Of a DNA stretch of 64,000 bases, positions 1 through 54,807 are shown piece after piece; positions within the stretch are counted from its first letter, which is position 1; the number at the start of each line of letters is the position of its first letter. The stretch lies in NCBI GenBank assembly GCA_022573285.1, contig JACZUF010000002.1:1-64000 (forward strand). Reading direction: 5' to 3'. This DNA comes from Chloroflexota bacterium. Its GTDB lineage: Bacteria; Chloroflexota; Dehalococcoidia; Lucifugimonadales; UBA3495. The position numbers and the translations under genes are program-made. The notes beneath the pieces were generated by a model. That model was not told where the DNA came from. It made no database searches and saw only the letters and a list, made by a program, of their open reading frames with translations.

Positions 1-163
1 TCGAAAACGGTGACGATGTGGCCGTGGGATTTGCCGTTGCCGCAGGCGCGGAAGTCGAGGTTGCCTCTGGGGTAAATGAAATTCCAGACCCGCCGCAGCC
101 GGCCGCCAAAATGCCGATACAAGTCGTGGATGAAAGAAGAAGCAGGACGCGCCAGACCAGCAT
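1..163 (-). CDS. Lipoprotein, N-terminal part (runs off window edge)
   Basis: The first 54 residues of a secreted lipoprotein are visible; the rest lies beyond position 1. The start is MLVWRVLLLLSS, a basic-hydrophobic signal peptide. It is followed by a lipobox-like LAAGC with the lipidated cysteine at residue 23, then a Gly/Ser/Thr/Pro/Ala-rich linker typical of exported lipoproteins of Gram-positive-type and Chloroflexota cells. The ATG overlaps the fabG stop as TGATG, so translation is probably coupled to fabG and the gene is the last visible member of that operon. Ala instead of Leu at position -3 of the lipobox is slightly unusual. The mature function cannot be told. Confidence 0.72.
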   Translation of the reverse strand, partial: MLVWRVLLLLSSTTCIGILAAGCGGSGISFTPEATSTSAPAATANPTATSSPFS

Positions 164-915
164 CAGGCGATCATGCCGCCGTCGATGGTCAGGACTTGGC
201 CGGTGATGTAGGCCGCGCCGTCGCTGCAGAGAAAGACCACCGCCTCGGCCACGTCCTCGGGCGTCCCGAACCGGCCCATGGGGATCCGGGCTAGAATCTT
301 CGCCTGGGTCTCCTCGGACAGTTCTTCCACCATCGCCGTCGTGATGTATCCAGGGGCCAGGGCGTTGACCGTGACGTTACGGGAGGCGACCTCCCGGGCC
401 ACCGCCTTGGTCAGACCCACCATTCCGGCCTTGGCGGCGGCGTAGTTGGCCTGCCCGGGGTTCCCGGAGAGCCCCACCACCGAGGACATGTTTATCACCC
501 GGCCCGACCGCTGCCGTATCAGGTGGGGCATGACGTAGCGGGTGCAGAGGAACGCCCCGCGCAGGTTGACGCTGATGACGCTGTCGAAGTCTTCAGGCTT
601 CATCCGGATCAACAATTGGTCCTTGTTGATGCCGGCGTTGTTAACCAGAATGTCGATGCTGCCGAAGTGTTCCACGACCTGTTTGACGACGGATTCGGCG
701 GCCTCTACTTGGGAAACGTCCCCGCCGACCAAATGGCCTTCCCCCCCGGCCTGAGTGATCGAATCGACGACCTGGGTGGCGGCGTCGGGGCTGGCGTGGT
801 AGTTGACACCAACCTTGACTCCGGCCTCGGCCAGGCGGCAGGCGACGACAGCGCCAATCCCCCGGGATGCTCCGGTGACCAGTGCGACTTTACCCCCCAG
901 GTCGATGCCAGACAT
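163..915 (-). CDS. fabG: 3-oxoacyl-[acyl-carrier-protein] reductase FabG
   Basis: This cytosolic SDR reduces 3-oxoacyl-ACP with NADPH in fatty-acid elongation. At 250 residues it has the normal family length. Visible motifs are the Rossmann TGASRGIG (14-21), NNAG (92-95), the SVNL motif with Asn117, and the catalytic Ser145, Tyr158 and Lys162. The C-terminus (GQVLTIDGGMIA) is the usual FabG end. It begins 8 bp after plsX and shares TGATG with the downstream lipoprotein start, so it lies inside a lipid-synthesis operon. FabG paralogs acting on other 3-oxoacyl thioesters cannot be excluded, but the plsX neighbour supports the biosynthetic role. Confidence 0.93.
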   Translation of the reverse strand: MSGIDLGGKVALVTGASRGIGAVVACRLAEAGVKVGVNYHASPDAATQVVDSITQAGGEGHLVGGDVSQVEAAESVVKQVVEHFGSIDILVNNAGINKDQLLIRMKPEDFDSVISVNLRGAFLCTRYVMPHLIRQRSGRVINMSSVVGLSGNPGQANYAAAKAGMVGLTKAVAREVASRNVTVNALAPGYITTAMVEELSEETQAKILARIPMGRFGTPEDVAEAVVFLCSDGAAYITGQVLTIDGGMIA

Positions 916-923
916 AATCCGCT

Positions 924-1979
924 CTACCGGCCCGCGCCGCTGCCGGCCGCCTTCGTCCCGTCCGCTCCCGTGATGGAGGCCAGGTCCTCCCGCATGATGT
1001 CGACCATGCCCAACTGCACATACCGGACGGCGGTGCTCACCGCGGCCAATATCTCATCGGCCCGGCTGGAGCCGTGGCCCAATATCACCGGACTGTTGAC
1101 CCCGAAGAGCGGGCCCCCGTTGGTGCGGGTGCGGTTGGTCAACCGGACCAACTCGGCGGCGAATTTGGAGAGACTGGCTTCGTCCGTGGAAGAGGCCAGC
1201 CGCTTCTTGGCGAACGCGGCGAAAGCGGCGCCGAGACCCTCGGTAAATTTTATAAGGATGTTGCCGACGAAGCCGTCACAGATGATGACTTCGGCTTTTT
1301 CGGTGAAGAAGTCCATCCCTTCGACGTTGCCCACGAAATTCAGGTGGCTGTCTTGGAACAGTTGATAGCTCTTCCGGACCTGTTTGTTGCCCTTGGCCGC
1401 TTCGGAACCAACGCTGAGCAGGGCTACTCTGGGGTTCTCGATGCCCATGTAGGTGCGGGCCCAGGAAACACCCAAGGATGCGAAGTTAAGCAGCAGCGCC
1501 GGGCGGCAGTCCAGATTGCTGCCGATGTCCACCAGAACGGTGTTGGGGGCCAGACCCAGGAATGGGCCGCCCAGGCAGGGACGCTCCAGCCCTTCCATCA
1601 GGCCCAATGTCAGGACCGCGCTGGCCATCGACCCGCCGGTGGACCCCATGGAGACCATGACGTCGGCGTCGCCGGTCTTGACCAATTGGGTGGCGACGAC
1701 CACCGAGGCCTTGGGCTTGGCCCGCATGGCCTGCAGCGGTTGCTCGTCCTCGCGGATCTTGTCTTTGGAAGGCACGACGCGGACGGACAGACCGGAAAGA
1801 TCGTGTTTGGCCAGTTCCTGCTCCACCGGGCCCTGGTCGCCCACCAGCAACATCTCCGCGCTGGTGGACTGGGCGGCCAAAATCGCTCCCTTCACCGTCT
1901 CCACCGGTCCGTGGTCTCCACCCATGGCGTCCAAAGCCACTCGCACCGGCCCCGTTCCGTTATTTGTCTGTTTCTGCAT
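924..1979 (-). CDS. plsX: Phosphate acyltransferase PlsX
   Basis: PlsX converts acyl-ACP and phosphate to acyl-phosphate, feeding PlsY in phospholipid synthesis; it is a peripheral membrane enzyme. The family start RVALDAMGGDHGP, the following V-x-G-A and the later MGSTGGSMA and DGFVGN motifs are present. An ORF remains open to 2048, but I place the start at the ATG at 1979 (MQKQTNNG) because GGAAGGG lies just upstream and the resulting 351 residues fit the family. It follows the dehydratase gene by about 75 bp and precedes fabG by 8 bp, the classic plsX-fabG arrangement. Confidence 0.93.
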   Translation of the reverse strand: MQKQTNNGTGPVRVALDAMGGDHGPVETVKGAILAAQSTSAEMLLVGDQGPVEQELAKHDLSGLSVRVVPSKDKIREDEQPLQAMRAKPKASVVVATQLVKTGDADVMVSMGSTGGSMASAVLTLGLMEGLERPCLGGPFLGLAPNTVLVDIGSNLDCRPALLLNFASLGVSWARTYMGIENPRVALLSVGSEAAKGNKQVRKSYQLFQDSHLNFVGNVEGMDFFTEKAEVIICDGFVGNILIKFTEGLGAAFAAFAKKRLASSTDEASLSKFAAELVRLTNRTRTNGGPLFGVNSPVILGHGSSRADEILAAVSTAVRYVQLGMVDIMREDLASITGADGTKAAGSGAGR

Positions 1980-2054
1980 CGTTTCCCTTCCTCGTCTGAC
2001 CGGGTCCTCCGGGTGTGTCATCCGAGTGTCGCCCGAGTCATTCGCCAAAGGTTT

Positions 2055-30657: not shown

Positions 30658-31857
30658 TTGAACGAACGCGCCCTGGACGGGGTGAAGGTCTTAGACCTCA
30701 CCCACCACATAGCCGGACCCTACTGCACCAAGCTGCTGGCCGATTTCGGCGCCGAGGTGGTCAAGGTCGAGCGGCCCGGCGGCGACCCGGCCCGGCGGAT
30801 GGCCCCCTTTCACCACGACGATGCCGACCCGGAAAAGAGCCTGGTCTTCGCCTACCTGAACACCAATAAGCAGAGCGTGACCCTAAACCTCAAATCCGGG
30901 AAGGGTATCCAGGTACTGAAGTCGCTGGTCGAAGAATCCGACGTCTTGGTGGAGAACTTCGCTCCCAGGGTCATGCCTTCCCTGGGGCTGGACTTCGAGA
31001 CCCTTCAACAGATCAATCCCAGCCTGGTCATGACGTCGATCTCCAACTTCGGGCAGACCGGGCCCTACCGGGACTACAAGGCCGCCGACATCGTCGAATA
31101 CGCCTTGGGGGGGCTCATGTATATCTTCGGGGCCTACGACCGGGAGCCCCTGAAGCACGCCTTCAATCAGGCCCAGTTCAAGGCCGGTACCGACGCCGCC
31201 TCGGCCACCCTGATGGCCATGTACCACCAGCGGCTCACCGGCGAGGGGCAGCGGGTGGACGTTTCGGTCCAGGAGGCGGTGGCCACCGGCCTTAGAGATG
31301 TGGTCAACAACTTCACCTACACCGGGGCGGTCCGCCGCCGTCAACCCAACCACAGCGGCGACCTCCTCCGCATGCGGGCCAGCGCCGACGGCCACCTCTT
31401 GCCCAATCCGGGTATCGGCGCCGGGCTGGACTGGAACATCGTGGTGGACTTCCTGGGCCTCCCGGAATTGGACGACGAGAGGTTCAGCACCCCCTCGGCC
31501 CGGCTGGTCAACGCCGAAGAACTGGGCCGGATACTGGACGAGTATTTCATCAAGCAGAACAAGTACGAAATGTTCTACGCCTCCCACGAGAAGCGGTTCA
31601 TCTTCGGCGTGGTCCAGTCTCCCGAAGAGGTCATGGCCGACCCGCAATTCGAGGCCAGGAACTACTTCGTCGATATCGGCCACCCGGCGCTGGGAACCCT
31701 CAAGTACCCCGGCGCTCCCTTCGAGATGAGCGGCACCCCGTGGGAGGCCCGCAGCCCGGCCCCAACCCTGGGCCAGCACAACCAGGAAGTCATCGGCCAA
31801 CGGCTGGGCCACACCAACGAACAACTGGCCCAGATGCGGGCCATGCAGATAATTTAA
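30658..31857 (+). CDS. CaiB/BaiF class III CoA-transferase, catalytic Asp replaced by Gln
   Basis: This 399-residue family III CoA-transferase fold has LDGVKVLDLTHHIAGPYCTKLL at the start, ADFGAEVVKVERPGGD, the NTNKQSVTLNLKSGKG segment, and TSISNFGQTGPYRDYKAAD. The TTG at 30658 has GGAG seven bases upstream; the GTG at 30616 lies in a repeat and is unlikely. Aligning from the conserved TG-x-GQ motif, the position of the catalytic aspartate is Gln173 (in AQFKAG). It is followed by a paralog that keeps the Asp, suggesting a heteromer with one active subunit. Confidence 0.9.
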   Translation: MNERALDGVKVLDLTHHIAGPYCTKLLADFGAEVVKVERPGGDPARRMAPFHHDDADPEKSLVFAYLNTNKQSVTLNLKSGKGIQVLKSLVEESDVLVENFAPRVMPSLGLDFETLQQINPSLVMTSISNFGQTGPYRDYKAADIVEYALGGLMYIFGAYDREPLKHAFNQAQFKAGTDAASATLMAMYHQRLTGEGQRVDVSVQEAVATGLRDVVNNFTYTGAVRRRQPNHSGDLLRMRASADGHLLPNPGIGAGLDWNIVVDFLGLPELDDERFSTPSARLVNAEELGRILDEYFIKQNKYEMFYASHEKRFIFGVVQSPEEVMADPQFEARNYFVDIGHPALGTLKYPGAPFEMSGTPWEARSPAPTLGQHNQEVIGQRLGHTNEQLAQMRAMQII

Positions 31858-33277: not shown

Positions 33278-33325
33278 AAAAATCCCCGAGGAGCCCCCTT
33301 TCGTAAAGGGGGTTGGGGGATTTCC
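33278..33325. repeat. REP-like hairpin (AAATCCCC...GGGGATTT family)
   Basis: AAAATCCCC, GAGGAGCCCCCTTTCG and TAAAGGGGGTTGGGGGATTT form a hairpin. Copies occur at 49453-49498 and 50704-50780, split by an insertion sequence at 46595-46623/48656-48671, and within a coding region at 52407-52463. The gene-free stretch 33240-33492 also contains GCTGACGGCTGAAAGCTG-type minirepeats and a fragment of the 78-bp repeat. Confidence 0.82.
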
Positions 33326-46590: not shown

Positions 46591-46594
46591 CGGC

Positions 46595-46623
46595 GGAAAT
46601 CCCCCCTGCCCCCCTTTACGAAA
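46595..46623. repeat. Left half of a REP-like hairpin, split by the insertion sequence
   Basis: CGGAAATCCCCCCTGCCCCC followed by CTTTACGAAA matches the AAATCCCC family. The right half, TTTACGAAAGGGGGG, continues at 48656 after the mobile element. Confidence 0.85.
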
Positions 46624-46678
46624 GGTGACTATCCCATGTCTGTAGAGGCGTGCAAAAATGAATGATTTGCCTCCGACC

Positions 46679-49452: not shown

Positions 49453-49498
49453 AAAATCCCCAGGAGCCCCCTTTCGTAAAGGGGGTTGGGGGATTTCT
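49453..49498. repeat. REP-like hairpin (AAATCCCC family)
   Basis: AAAATCCCCAGGAGCCCCCT then TTCGTAAAGGGGGTTGGGGGATTT, nearly identical to 33278-33325, between convergent genes. The flanks hold AGCTATCAGCGGTCAG-type minirepeats. Confidence 0.85.
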
Positions 49499-49575: not shown

Positions 49576-50676
49576 TCAGTTGTGACACCCTCTTGCCTGA
49601 ATGTCCCAGACCACTTCCACCTTGCCGTTTCGCAGGCCGACGAAGCGGTCCCAGCGGCTGACCATGGCGTCTTGCTGTGCCGGTATCAGCAGCAATTGGT
49701 CGCCGACTTTTAGGCTATCCCCGGACTCAAACTTGAATACAGCGTGGTCGCTGTCCATTGATTCCACCGTCACGCCGGGGCGGCCGGACACCTCGGGCAT
49801 GCCTAACAGACTGCTGACGGCGCGGACGCCGGCATCTCCGATGGCGACGCCGGGTCGTGGGGTGCTGATGATCGTCGTGAGTATCATGCCGGCGTAATGG
49901 AACTCGCTCATGTAGCCGTAGTGGGTCTCCATCATCAGGTAGCTGCCGCCTTGAATCTCGGTCACGCCGGGGATATCCGCGGCCACGTCGTAACTCCAAG
50001 TCTCTCCGGTTGAGACGATCTCCACCGGGAGCCCGGCCCCCTCGATGGCGTCCTTCAGGTCGATCACGCCCTTGATCGTCCGGTTGGCCTCCACGGCCCG
50101 GTCCTCCCGGTCGGGCATCGCGGGGATCACCTGATGGCTCATGATTCCGCGAAAGCGCAGGCCCGGCAGCGAAGCAATCTCCTTGGCCAGGGCCACGCCG
50201 GCGTCCATCTCCCTAACCCCGCAGCGGCGCAGTCCCGTTTCCAGTTCGATGACCACTCCCAGTTCCACCCCCCTGGCCTGGGCGGCCTTGGAGAGGTCCC
50301 GGGCGTTGGCCGCCTGGTCGCAGGAAACCAGCATCTCGGCCTGGTCCGCCAGGGCGCAGAGGCGGTCAATCTTCATGGACCCCACGATCTCGGAGGTGAT
50401 GAACACGCTGGGGATGCCGCCGTGGACCATGACTTCGGCCTCGGAGACCTTGGCGGCGCAGACCCCGCCCACGGTGCCGCCCCGGCGTATCTGCCGGTGG
50501 GCGATGGCCGGGGTCTTGTGGTTCTTGGCGTGCCCCCTGAGCTTGGCGCTGCGCCCCTGGTAGCAGTCGGCGATGACGTCCATGTTGTTATCCAGGGCGT
50601 CCATGTCGATGACCAGGCAGGGAGTGTCCAAGTCTTCCATTGGCGTCCCAGGCTGGGGCCGGTAATGCTCTTCCAT
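49576..50676 (-). CDS. Alanine-racemase-fold PLP enzyme, D-threonine aldolase/DSD1 type
   Basis: This 366-residue type III PLP protein splits or dehydrates 3-hydroxy-D-amino acids in known family members. The PLP-lysine region reads LRGHAKNHKTPAIAH (Lys51 and Lys54), followed by VSEAEVMVHGG, ELETGLRRCGV and GVTEIQGGSYLMME. The usual metal motif near the C-terminus is altered (IPAQQDAMVSRWD). The start is the ATG at 50676 with AGGAG nine bases upstream; the longer ORF runs through a REP-like repeat. A paralog lies 104 bp upstream in the same direction. Confidence 0.88.
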   Translation of the reverse strand: MEEHYRPQPGTPMEDLDTPCLVIDMDALDNNMDVIADCYQGRSAKLRGHAKNHKTPAIAHRQIRRGGTVGGVCAAKVSEAEVMVHGGIPSVFITSEIVGSMKIDRLCALADQAEMLVSCDQAANARDLSKAAQARGVELGVVIELETGLRRCGVREMDAGVALAKEIASLPGLRFRGIMSHQVIPAMPDREDRAVEANRTIKGVIDLKDAIEGAGLPVEIVSTGETWSYDVAADIPGVTEIQGGSYLMMETHYGYMSEFHYAGMILTTIISTPRPGVAIGDAGVRAVSSLLGMPEVSGRPGVTVESMDSDHAVFKFESGDSLKVGDQLLLIPAQQDAMVSRWDRFVGLRNGKVEVVWDIQARGCHN

Positions 50677-50703
50677 ATAAAAACTCCTCTTTTGGGCGGG
50701 AGC

Positions 50704-50780
50704 GGAAATCCCCCTTAATCCCCCTTTGCAAAGGGGGAGATTCGGAAGCCCCCTTTCGCAAAGGGGGTTGGGGGGATTTC
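50704..50780. repeat. Double REP-like hairpin between the two PLP-enzyme genes
   Basis: Two overlapping copies (GGAAATCCCCCTTAATCCCC and AGCCCCCTTTCGCAAAGGGG) lie directly after the stop of the gene at 50781. They extend the next gene's ORF by 36 spurious codons. Confidence 0.85.
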
Positions 50781-51893
50781 TCACGCCAATCGGCCGCGGG
50801 CAGAGATGGGCCAGAAGCCCTCTAGCTTGCCGCCCTTGACCGCGCGGATGTAGTCGTATTGGTTAACACAGGCGCCCAGTTCGTAGGGCACCAACCATGC
50901 TTTGTCGCCGGGGTTCAGCTTTTTCTGGGCGTCGCCCTCCAGTTCCACGATGCCGTGCTCGGCGCTGAACCGGGTGGCGCTTCCTCCCTCCACCCCGTCC
51001 AGGACGGGCCTGCCTTGGTCGGGGGCCATGGCCTTGTGCCCCGCGTCCAAGACCGCCAGGCCATCAATCGGGTGGGAAATCACCGACGCCAGCACCCTGG
51101 CCGCCGGGGCAAGCTCGGGCAGGAATGACTTGAGGCGGTGGTCCATCAGCGGATAACGCCCCGCCCGGACCTCGGTCACCCCTGGCATCTGTATGGCTTG
51201 GGTGTAGCAGTGGGCGCCACCGACGCTGACAACCGCCACCGGCAAGCCGGCCTTTTCCATATCCTCTTTGGCGTCCAGGACGACCTGTAAATTCGCGCGT
51301 GATCTTGTTTCGTGCTGGGACGGGTCATCGTCATCCTTGGGACCGGGCACCGAGCCCATGACGCCCTCGAACTTGAGTGCGGGAAGCCCGCTTATCTTCT
51401 GGGCCAGGGCCACGGCGCCGGGGCCGGACGCTATGCCGCAGCGGCCCATGCCCGCCTCGATCTCGACCAGAACCCTCAATTCCACTTTGGCGGAGGCGGC
51501 GCCCTGGGAGAGTTGTTCGGCGTTCTCCGGGCTGTCCACCGCCACTCCGATGCCAGTCTGGCCCGCCAAGGCGCAGAGCCGCCTGATCTTGGAGACGGTG
51601 ACCACCTGGTTGGCCAGGAGGATGTCGGCGAACCCCGAACCGGCGAACACCTCAGCCTCGCCCAGGGTGGTCACGGCGATGCCGCCCACCGTGCCGACGG
51701 CGTCCAGTTGCCGGTGGGCGATCTGGGGGCAGAGGTGACTGGTAACCACCGGCCGGACCTTGGCCGCCGAGTCCTTGAAATAACCCTGGAAGGTCTGGAT
51801 ATTTCGGTCCATGACGTCCAGGTCGACCACCAACGCCGGGGTGTCCAGTTCTTCGACCGGGGTGCCCACCGGCTGGAAAATGGGACGTTCCAT
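50781..51893 (-). CDS. D-threonine-aldolase-like paralog lacking the PLP lysine
   Basis: At 370 residues it aligns without gaps to the downstream paralog at the N-terminus (TPVEELDTPALVVDLDVMDRN). In the PLP-lysine segment it reads VRPVVTSHLCPQIAHRQ, where the paralog has LRGHAKNHKTPAIAHRQ: Lys51 is Thr and Lys54 is Leu. The remainder of the barrel (LGEAEVFAGSG, EIEAGMGRCGI, GVTEVRAGRYPLMD) and C-terminal domain are kept. It is presumably not an aldolase; it may be a regulatory or structural partner. GGGAG lies nine bases before the ATG at 51893. Confidence 0.86.
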   Translation of the reverse strand: MERPIFQPVGTPVEELDTPALVVDLDVMDRNIQTFQGYFKDSAAKVRPVVTSHLCPQIAHRQLDAVGTVGGIAVTTLGEAEVFAGSGFADILLANQVVTVSKIRRLCALAGQTGIGVAVDSPENAEQLSQGAASAKVELRVLVEIEAGMGRCGIASGPGAVALAQKISGLPALKFEGVMGSVPGPKDDDDPSQHETRSRANLQVVLDAKEDMEKAGLPVAVVSVGGAHCYTQAIQMPGVTEVRAGRYPLMDHRLKSFLPELAPAARVLASVISHPIDGLAVLDAGHKAMAPDQGRPVLDGVEGGSATRFSAEHGIVELEGDAQKKLNPGDKAWLVPYELGACVNQYDYIRAVKGGKLEGFWPISARGRLA

Positions 51894-52238
51894 GTAGGTT
51901 GTCTCCCGCGGCCATACGGGCCGTTGATTGTGGGTATAGGGGCGCGAGATAGATGGGCAGAAGAATACCATAAACGGAGACCAGGCACAGGCATCTGGAG
52001 GCAGGCCACCACCCGCCGCCTGACATTCTGGTCCCGACCAGTCGGGAAAGAATCTCGTTGCTTCGAACTCGGTAGAGCGGTGGACACGAGACCCTTCCCC
52101 CGACTGCGGCCAGGGTCAGGGTGACAATGCGGGTATAGGCGCGGTTGCATTTGCCAACGACCGGTGCAACAATCTCAGCGGCTATCTGGGGCAGCTAGCC
52201 GGCTGCCTGGGGAAGCCCCGATATTTGGAGACCGATAG
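51894..52238. other. Gene-free region with degraded repeat fragments
   Basis: This divergent gap contains GAATCTCGTTGCTTCGAACT and GGTCAGGGTGACA, pieces that resemble the ends of the 78-bp repeat family, and a GGGTATAGG motif repeated twice. The right edge has GGAG, the ribosome site for the gene at 52239. No ORF or RNA motif was recognised. Confidence 0.5.
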
Positions 52239-53519
52239 ATGCCGGGACTGCTGGAAGGGGTCAGGGTTTTGGACCTGACTCACTATATCGCCGGGCCCTA
52301 CTGCACCAAGCTGCTCTCCGGCCTGGGCGCGGACGTGATCAAGATTGAGCACCCTAGAAGAGGGGACGGGGCCAGGTGGTTGGGGCCCTTCGCTTCGGAC
52401 GGGGCGGAAATCCCCCCTGGCCCCCCTTTATCCCGATTCAGATCGGGAGGGGGGAGGCCTCCCGAGGATAGCGCTTGGTTTCTTTATCTGAATACGGCCA
52501 AACAGAGTTTGGCTTTGGATATCAAGTCGTCCGAAGGGCGGAAAATTGCTTTGGGGCTTGCTTCCAAGGCGGACATCTTGGTGGAGAGCTTCGCTCCTGG
52601 GACCTTGGACTCGTTGGGGCTGCCGTATGCGGAGTTGCAGAAGGCCAACCCGGCGCTGGTGGTGACATCCATCTCCAACTTCGGCCAGACCGGCCCCTAC
52701 CGGGACTGGAAGGCGTCGGAGTTGAACCTCTACGCCCTGGGCGGGTTGATGAACATCACCGGAGAGCCGGACCAGGAACCCCTTAAAGAGGGCATGCCCC
52801 TGGCCCAGTTGGGCGCGGGACAGAACGCCTTCGCCGCCACCATGGCCGCATTGATGTACGCCGAGGAGACGGGCGAGGGCCAGCAGATAGACGTGTCCAT
52901 CGCCGAATACGCCACCAACATCCTGGAAAACGCGCTGATGCAGTACAGCTACTCCGGCCAGGAGTACCGCCGGGTGGGCAACCGGGGCTACGGCCGGGCC
53001 GCCTGGGGCATCTACCCCTGCCAGGACGGCCACGTTGGCATCATCGCCGGGCCCGACACCCGGTGGCCCGAGGTGGCCAAGATCATGGAGCGGGAAGAGC
53101 TGTCCGACCCCCGTTTCACCTCCCGCGCCGGGCGGCTGGAGCATGCCGACGAGGTGGACGCCTACATGCTGCCCTGGCTCTTGGACAACGACAAAGTGGA
53201 CATCTTCAAGGCCGGGCAGGAGAGCGGACTGGGCTTCAGTTTCGTCGCCACCATGAAGGACATTCTGGAGATGGAGCAACTCCTGGCCCGGGACTACTTC
53301 GTGGCCCTGGACCATCCGGTGGCCGGACGGCTCAACTACCCCGGCGCGCCGATCATGCCCGAGGAAGGCGTCAATGCCTGGGTGTTCCGGCGGGCGCCCC
53401 TGCTCGGCGAGCAGACCTATCAGGTCCTAGATTCCTGGCTGGGCTACTCGGAAGAACGGGTGTCGGGTCTGATAGAGCAGGGCGTGATTGTCCAGAACGG
53501 GCGGAACGAGAAGGTCTAG
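52239..53519 (+). CDS. CaiB/BaiF class III CoA-transferase with in-frame repeat insertion; Asp replaced by Gln
   Basis: This 426-residue close relative of the gene at 30658 has EGVRVLDLTHYIAGPYCTKLL, SISNFGQTGPYRDWKASE and DVSIAEYATN. The catalytic position is Gln190 (in LAQLGAG), not Asp. Codons 57-75 (EIPPGPPLSRFRSGGGRPP) are encoded by a REP-like repeat at 52407-52463; the paralog lacks them. GGAG lies eight bases before the ATG. Its neighbour, 4 bp downstream, keeps the Asp, so the two probably make a heteromer. Confidence 0.9.
   Translation: MPGLLEGVRVLDLTHYIAGPYCTKLLSGLGADVIKIEHPRRGDGARWLGPFASDGAEIPPGPPLSRFRSGGGRPPEDSAWFLYLNTAKQSLALDIKSSEGRKIALGLASKADILVESFAPGTLDSLGLPYAELQKANPALVVTSISNFGQTGPYRDWKASELNLYALGGLMNITGEPDQEPLKEGMPLAQLGAGQNAFAATMAALMYAEETGEGQQIDVSIAEYATNILENALMQYSYSGQEYRRVGNRGYGRAAWGIYPCQDGHVGIIAGPDTRWPEVAKIMEREELSDPRFTSRAGRLEHADEVDAYMLPWLLDNDKVDIFKAGQESGLGFSFVATMKDILEMEQLLARDYFVALDHPVAGRLNYPGAPIMPEEGVNAWVFRRAPLLGEQTYQVLDSWLGYSEERVSGLIEQGVIVQNGRNEKV
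52407..52463 (+). repeat. REP-like element inside a coding sequence
   Basis: GGAAATCCCCCCTGGCCCCC followed by CCTTTATCCCG matches the left half of the intergenic repeat family (compare 46595-46623), then GGGAGGGGGGAGGCC. It adds 57 bases (19 codons) without breaking the frame. Confidence 0.85.
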
Positions 53520-53523
53520 TCCC

Positions 53524-54807
53524 ATGCGGAAGACGCCGGAAAGACTGCCCCTCAAGAACTACCGGGTGCTGGACCTCTCCCGCATCTGGGCGGGGCCGTA
53601 CTGCACCAAGCTGTTCGCCGACATGGGCGCCGAGATCATCAAGATGGAGTCGCTGAGCGTCTACGACTCCCACCGGGGCCCGGTCAGCCCGGCCCGGGGC
53701 ATTGCCGCCTATCCGGACGGCGAACCCGGCGAGCAGCCCTGGAACCGGAACGGCTGGTTCAACTGTCTTCACATGTCCAAGTACGGCGTCACCCTGGAAT
53801 TGACCAAGGACGAGGGACGCCGGGTATTCGAGCAACTGGTGTCCATCAGCGACGTGCTGATCGAGAACTTCCGGCAGGGAAGCCTGGAAAGGCTGGGCTA
53901 CACCTATGAGGAACTGCGGAAACACCGTCCCGACCTGATCTACGTCTCGATGCCGGCCTTCGGCAACACCGGGCCCTGGAAGAGTTACTTGGGCTACGGC
54001 ATCGGCCAGGAGCAGCTCTCGGGCATGGCCCACATGACCGGCTACCGGGGCGAGGGGCCCATGAAGTCGGGCATCAACCACGGCGACCCCATCACCGGCT
54101 CCCACGCCGCCGGAGTCCTGATGGCCGCCCTGCGCCACCGCCGCCGCACCGGCAAGGGCATGTTCATCGACGTCTCCCAGCAGGAGTCCTCAGTCGCCCT
54201 GATGGGGCCCGAAGTCCTGGCCTACCAGATGACCGGACGGGAACCGGAACGCCGGGGCAACCGCTCCGGCTGGTACGCGCCCGCCAACAGCTATCCCTGC
54301 GCCGGCGAGGACCGCTGGGTGACCATCGCCGCCACCAACCAGGAGCAGTGGCGAAACCTCACCCAGGTTATGAAATTCCCAGAAATGACCGGCGACCCCC
54401 GGTTCGCCACCGCCGCCCAGCGCCGTGAGAACGAAGACGAACTGGACCGGACCATCTCGAAATGGACCATCGGCCAAGATGCCTATGACGTTGCCCACAA
54501 ACTTCAAAAGGCGGGAGTGCCCGCCGCTCCGGTGCTGCGCGGCCCCGACCTGTTGGCCGACCCCCACTACAAGCACAGGGGCACCTTCGTCACCGTGGAC
54601 CACCCTCAGGTGGGACCCAAGCAGTATCCGGGGATCCCCTGGAAGATGTCGGCCACCCCCGGACAGGTCCGCTGGCCGTCCCCGACTTTGGGACAGCACA
54701 ACCGGGAGGTCTACGGCGAGCTGCTGGGACTGACCGGGACCGAGATCGGCCAACTGGAAAAGTCCGGGACCATCGGCGACCGGCCCACCGGCTCGCGAAT
54801 TATCTAG
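53524..54807 (+). CDS. CaiB/BaiF class III CoA-transferase with catalytic Asp
   Basis: This 427-residue family III CoA-transferase has KNYRVLDLSRIWAGPYCTKLFADMGAE at the start, PAFGNTGPWKSYLGYG, and the catalytic Asp188 in NHGDPITGSHAAGVLMAAL. The start is the ATG at 53524, four bases after the preceding stop; an ORF opens at 53488 in the overlapping frame. The C-terminal LGLTGTEIGQLEKSGTIG is typical. With the Gln-containing partner it repeats the arrangement seen at 30658-33239. The substrates are unknown. Confidence 0.92.
   Translation: MRKTPERLPLKNYRVLDLSRIWAGPYCTKLFADMGAEIIKMESLSVYDSHRGPVSPARGIAAYPDGEPGEQPWNRNGWFNCLHMSKYGVTLELTKDEGRRVFEQLVSISDVLIENFRQGSLERLGYTYEELRKHRPDLIYVSMPAFGNTGPWKSYLGYGIGQEQLSGMAHMTGYRGEGPMKSGINHGDPITGSHAAGVLMAALRHRRRTGKGMFIDVSQQESSVALMGPEVLAYQMTGREPERRGNRSGWYAPANSYPCAGEDRWVTIAATNQEQWRNLTQVMKFPEMTGDPRFATAAQRRENEDELDRTISKWTIGQDAYDVAHKLQKAGVPAAPVLRGPDLLADPHYKHRGTFVTVDHPQVGPKQYPGIPWKMSATPGQVRWPSPTLGQHNREVYGELLGLTGTEIGQLEKSGTIGDRPTGSRII

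Follow-up and report, generated by a model that had tools for sequence, protein, structure and literature searches.

In-frame copies of a dispersed palindromic repeat in a class III CoA-transferase and other conserved enzymes of SAR202 Chloroflexota

The class III CoA-transferase encoded at 52239 of the window (the whole stretch of DNA that was analyzed, 64,000 nucleotides on contig 31 of a 3.17 Mb, 81-contig genome) carries part of a dispersed repeat in frame, such that residues 57-73 (EIPPGPPLSRFRSGGGR) are specified by repeat DNA (Table 1). We consider it very probable that these residues are the translated half of a small non-autonomous palindrome, here called family A, that is spreading in SAR202. 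Family A is itself most likely a selfish, MITE-like palindrome that is tolerated in surface loops, as far as structural models can indicate.

Table 1. Features of the CoA-transferase gene, its inserted element and other family-A copies in the window.
Feature	Position	Strand	Basis or remark
Class III (CaiB/FRC-type) CoA-transferase gene, insertion host, 426 aa	52239..53519	+	PF02515, E 5e-101
Left half of a family-A palindromic element, in frame: terminal repeat and first hairpin (long form)	52404..52457	+	
Left terminal inverted repeat GCGGAAATCCCCCC	52404..52417	+	Complete copies have same ends
Outer hairpin 5' arm CCCCCC, pairs with 52449-52454	52421..52426	+	RNA fold
Inner hairpin 5' arm TCCCGAT (long form)	52431..52437	+	Copy reading, RNA fold
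Inner hairpin 3' arm ATCGGGA	52442..52448	+	Copy reading, RNA fold
Outer hairpin 3' arm GGGGGG	52449..52454	+	RNA fold
Partial family-A copy, intergenic	46592..46627	+	BLAST, covariance model
Complete double-hairpin family-A element, both terminal repeats	50702..50783	.	Copy reading, covariance model
Family-A copy, intergenic	49453..49496	-	Copy reading, covariance model
Family-A copy	33280..33323	-	Copy reading, covariance model

A sequence-only reading of this DNA had proposed an in-frame repeat within the gene, and BLAST, pattern matching and a covariance model all confirm a dispersed one. A query spanning 52380-52490 has its best match in its own genome at C25:20401-20449 (49 bp, 98% identical, E 8.5e-18), with ten further places at E < 1e-7 (11 in all), the longest exact match to another genome copy is 37 bp (52420-52456), and covariance model R1 scores the copy at E 6.3e-15 in a search of the same genome. 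The earlier figure of about 20 identical bases holds within the window (best 17 bp, at 46592) but is an underestimate genome-wide; similarly, the repeat was first placed at 52407-52463 but in truth extends over 52404-52457, with 52458-52463 being non-repeat, and the nineteen codons said to have been added are a net gain of 17 when set against orthologs with a short 18-residue stretch. The paralog at 30658 does lack the repeat stretch, as had been stated.

Complete family-A copies have the ends GCGGAAATCCCCC / GGGGGATTTCCGC, with terminal inverted repeats, and individual copies read as the terminal repeat GCGGAAATCCCCC, a few variable bases and a hairpin, CCCCCTTT-NN(N)-AAAGGGGG. The closing repeat follows directly after this first hairpin in single-hairpin elements (about 50 bp); in double-hairpin elements (about 90 bp) a second hairpin intervenes before the closing GGGGGATTTCCGC, and a “long” variant has ATCCCGATTCAGATCGGG at the center of the first hairpin. 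The family-A pattern gives 114 overlapping matches in the genome against 0 for a reversed control, and the covariance model (E <= 1e-6) places 45 separate sites, 4 of which (the CoA-transferase among them) lie inside genes recognized by conserved-family models; numerous long open frames that overlie other copies, being antisense or spurious, were left out of this count. That most sites lie outside recognizable conserved genes implies that copies in genes are strongly selected against or that genes are avoided. The complete element at 50702-50783 adjoins the start of a minus-strand gene (49576-50784), N-terminal of its conserved domain, and elsewhere in the genome short tandem repeats reading APPRVVCVWVMS(L/P)IPIAIGTT stand beside a family-A copy (C41:2900-5300). 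As RNA, the CoA-transferase insert folds at -38.9 kcal/mol, mildly better than shuffles (z -1.95); a conserved structural RNA hairpin is not supported, since the fold shows little that composition would not give (z about -1 to -2) and is lost in relative G007 (G numbers denote genomes, and G000 is this one).

The PF02515 domain covers residues 5-393 of the product, running across the insert, and structure comparison matches the fold to human SUGCT (9br7, E 1.3e-35). An AlphaFold2 model gives a confident CoA-transferase fold (mean pLDDT 82) but a low-confidence insert segment (means of 58 and 48 for the blocks covering residues 51-70), and to go by this model the translated insert probably forms a floppy loop at the surface. 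The frame is kept and the loop, variable and of low confidence, lies between conserved blocks, in line with the original description of a proline/glycine-rich loop between conserved segments.

Elsewhere in this genome, RdgB holds two family-A elements in tandem and in frame (C25:20292-20449), QueA holds family A in frame (C39:126428-126568), and an FAD-linked oxidase/4Fe-4S/CCG protein holds an in-frame half element between its iron-sulfur and CCG domains (C75:56151-56195, L102). In alignments with solved homologs (1k7k for RdgB, 1yy3 for QueA), both inserts lie between aligned blocks. Among congeners, the RdgB insert is present in G005, G006, G008, G009 and G010, survives as a relic in G007, and is absent from G001, G002 and G004; family A in QueA is full, single, half, eroded or absent. 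Outside the genus, QueA of G034 has it too. In G016, which belongs to another genus, RdgB carries family A in a different frame (EIPPTPLYERG vs KSPLAPLYERG), which makes an independent insertion most likely, and IleRS carries family A mid-way in its TIGR00392 match. This IleRS (L203, C40:26700-29200, ORF 2-1993, minus strand) has at least one in-frame element, PPFGKGGPGGIS, with a similar SPPSQGG stretch before it, between conserved segments. In the C-terminal part of QueA (L124), a further stretch of about 26 residues (GQGRRGPSTCPISSPDASGSTSGRS) separates MLVSAF from the conserved C-terminal motif; this second insertion is not recognizable as family A.

Orthologs of the CoA-transferase in named genomes come from SAR202-cluster/Dehalococcoidia MAGs of the Chloroflexota, and their tree was built without the loop residues. 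Outgroup orthologs have a constant 18-residue stretch (17 codons shorter), as does the greater part of a clade within the family; elsewhere the stretch varies between 24 and 48 residues. Clear family-A DNA occupies the loop in G000 and its congeners G005, G002, G010 and G006, and also in G034, which belongs to another genus, and in L064/G060; the model scores every one of these copies at an E-value of about 2e-9 or better. The L064 contig (JACZSB010000207) is labeled Candidatus Neomarinimicrobiota; its SAR202-type CoA-transferase falls inside the Chloroflexota clade of the tree, and the contig is probably misbinned. By eye, the loops of G007 (no model hit) and G009 (a weak one) appear to hold eroded family A, and that of G011 (no model hit) a different or eroded short palindrome. 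Two congeners, G003 and G004, have no insert in the ortholog alignment, and the idea that close relatives would lack the 57 bases is borne out by this pair but not by G002, G005, G006 and G010, whose loops hold recognizably the same element and not unrelated DNA.

Within the genus the inserts have the same left arm and the residues GPP in common, which a single ancestral insertion would explain most simply; the insertion is, as these orthologs indicate, older than the source species. The hairpin is of the long form in this genome and G006 and of the short form in their sister genomes, such that each of the pairs G000/G005 and G006/G010 has one of either kind, amounting to two changes among five congeners. 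Since the short form is no simple deletion of the long one, replacement by another copy would be the likeliest cause. Element-rich genomes have 16 long loops and 0 short, nearly element-free genomes 3 long and 5 short (18-residue), an association that depends on phylogeny, with only 3 independent pairs. G007 has 2 weak family-A hits genome-wide and keeps eroded, protein-like loops in CoA-transferase, QueA and RdgB; judged from these sequences, it is a natural case of a repeat becoming ordinary coding sequence.

The CoA-transferase loop of G029 (another genus) contains CCCTCACCCCAACCCCTCTCCCTGAGGGAGAGGGG, a copy of a family B that is unrelated in sequence to family A, has the complete ends GCCCTCACC.../...GGTGAGGGC, and occupies dozens of places in that genome by BLAST, its exact pattern having matched the query copy alone. 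The sister genome G016 has a degraded version of family B in this loop. The loop has on this evidence received at least two unrelated palindromes.

Repeated arrival has to be weighed against a single insertion in the ancestor of the whole CoA-transferase family, later lost or replaced, under which the hot spot would be nothing but ancestry; we regard this as a possible, if rather unlikely, history. It would explain why the frame is the same in the genus, G034 and G060, and why the right boundary of the QueA insert is identical in the genus and G034, but it does not accommodate family B in the loop of G029 and its degraded form in G016, nor the other frame of family A in G016 RdgB. In addition, the loops of eight short-loop lineages within the family match the outgroup in length exactly, for which precise excision would be needed, and the tree requires a minimum of 5-6 state changes of the loop. 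Repeated insertion and ancestry can be told apart only where family or frame differs.

It is improbable, in our view, that the inserted peptide is selected for a function (interaction, regulation or oligomer contact) instead of being tolerated. Selection would fit the frame and EIPP.PPL start common to the genus, G034 and G060 (L064), which are separate lineages, and the protein-like relics that G007 RdgB keeps in a genome nearly without recognizable repeats; against this, loop sequence and length differ between sister species, two congeners do without the insert, and RdgB and QueA use another frame, with G016 RdgB using yet another than its counterparts in the congener genus.

A variable GC-rich low-complexity loop that resembles intergenic repeats by chance is scarcely credible, for although loop length varies across much of the family and G021, G028 and G026 have long loops with no recognizable repeat, the 49-bp and 37-bp matches to dispersed copies and the empty reversed-pattern control refute chance similarity for this genome, and family A recurs in RdgB, QueA and IleRS. 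There is likewise next to no prospect that assembly or binning wrongly joined a repeat into the gene: the genome is metagenome-assembled and repeats are prone to misassembly, but the independent MAGs G002, G005, G006 and G010 carry the insertion with the same left arm, on which ground misassembly was rejected, and the frame is intact in all of these.

All six frames of a complete single-hairpin copy are free of stop codons, as is the case for 7% of random 50-mers of the same composition, and the copy encodes Pro/Gly-rich peptides; the two double-hairpin copies examined have 2 of 6 frames open. We envisage that family A entered the CoA-transferase gene before the genus radiated, through some recombinase. 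Because the single copy is stop-free in all frames, insertion of 3n net length would add a hydrophilic, Pro/Gly-rich peptide. Purifying selection would then have purged copies except in surface loops, where such a peptide should be roughly neutral. The in-gene copy would keep changing, its hairpin center being replaced by conversion with other copies (as suggested by the long and short hairpins of sister genomes), and where a lineage has no intact copies, as with G007, the insert would erode into ordinary loop sequence.

Rickettsia and Wolbachia supply the best-known palindromes that code for protein; scattered cases with REPs come from elsewhere. The analogy with Rickettsia drawn by the sequence-only reading holds in kind: family A, like RPE-1 to RPE-7, is palindromic and dispersed, lies between genes and in frame in several unrelated conserved enzymes, occupies loops between conserved segments with the frame kept, and has intact, exchanged and diverged versions at the same site of orthologs. 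Such RPE-like behavior is seen in CoA-transferase, RdgB and QueA, each with and without the insert, and in IleRS with it. The RPE gene list includes QueA and isoleucyl-tRNA synthetase (PMC3767692), both among the genes struck here or in G016. Going by the descriptions of RPE sequences, family A differs in design (AAATCCCCC...GGGGGATTT) and has no CGTC tag, which is reported for R. conorii RPEs (PMC3733652). It is also smaller, about 50 or 90 bp vs the 68-192 bp listed for R. japonica RPEs, and unlike these it is six-frame stop-free when single and belongs to another phylum, in uncultured marine MAGs and not an intracellular parasite.

REPs are defined by a GTAG tag and a Y1/RAYT transposase. 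The earlier label “REP-like” is apt in form, since family A and canonical REPs/REPINs alike are short hairpins, single or in inverted pairs, that are mainly intergenic, but the family-A ends are without GTAG (or CGTC) and Y1_Tnp genes (PF01797, RAYT-type) occur in 0 of 27 genomes vs 5 of 14 control genomes, so that a RAYT was rejected as mobilizer. Intragenic REP units are recorded in several species, with different REPs at approximately the same recB site in two Xanthomonas species (PMC3733652). The MITEs ERIC/RU-1 and NEMIS (107 bp) provide open frames fused to genes (PMC2229807, PMC10969869) and resemble family A in this, in being non-autonomous and in having terminal inverted repeats; family A is smaller, with ends based on G/C runs, and we recognized neither a parent transposon (Y1_Tnp searched) nor a target-site duplication, the nearest empty site (QueA of G004) being too diverged. 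The Wolbachia palindromic element, which shares a biotin ligase gene region with RPE (PMC3767692), also forms in-frame palindromes in proteins, in a different host and, going by its description, as a different element.

We found no description of palindromic repeats in SAR202 in the literature searched, to which subscription papers mostly do not belong. The SAR202 palindrome family with its reused landing loops, the host lineage and the comparative series over several genes all appear undescribed; in-gene palindromes as a kind are already known. A different element does in uncultured marine Chloroflexota what those of Rickettsia do, with empty, intact, exchanged and eroded states in three enzymes, and this series makes it testable whether insertion is random and filtered by selection or returns to preferred loops. 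More speculatively, a few core-enzyme surface loops might be a recurrent safe harbor for unrelated palindromes across SAR202 genera, possibly across phyla, with exchange between in-gene and intergenic hairpins continually rewriting proteins, a proposal that we hold only tentatively. Reuse across genera is suggested by the three genes that hold family A in separate genera and by the CoA-transferase loop that family B occupies as well, and possible reuse across phyla by the palindromes that QueA and IleRS bear in Rickettsia too.

Two minor observations concern the host gene and its surroundings. Residue 161 (codon 52719-52721) is Glu where class III CoA-transferases have the catalytic Asp, by alignment to SUGCT; all SAR202 orthologs of the subgroup have Glu, and Asp is kept in the paralog at 30658 and in distant homologs, so that this subgroup may have a changed chemistry, on the alignment evidence. 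The minus-strand neighbors 49576-50784 and 50781-51971 are both of alanine-racemase-N/D-serine-dehydratase type, and this pair adjoins two neighboring CoA-transferase genes, at 52239 and 53488-54807 (window 49576-54807).
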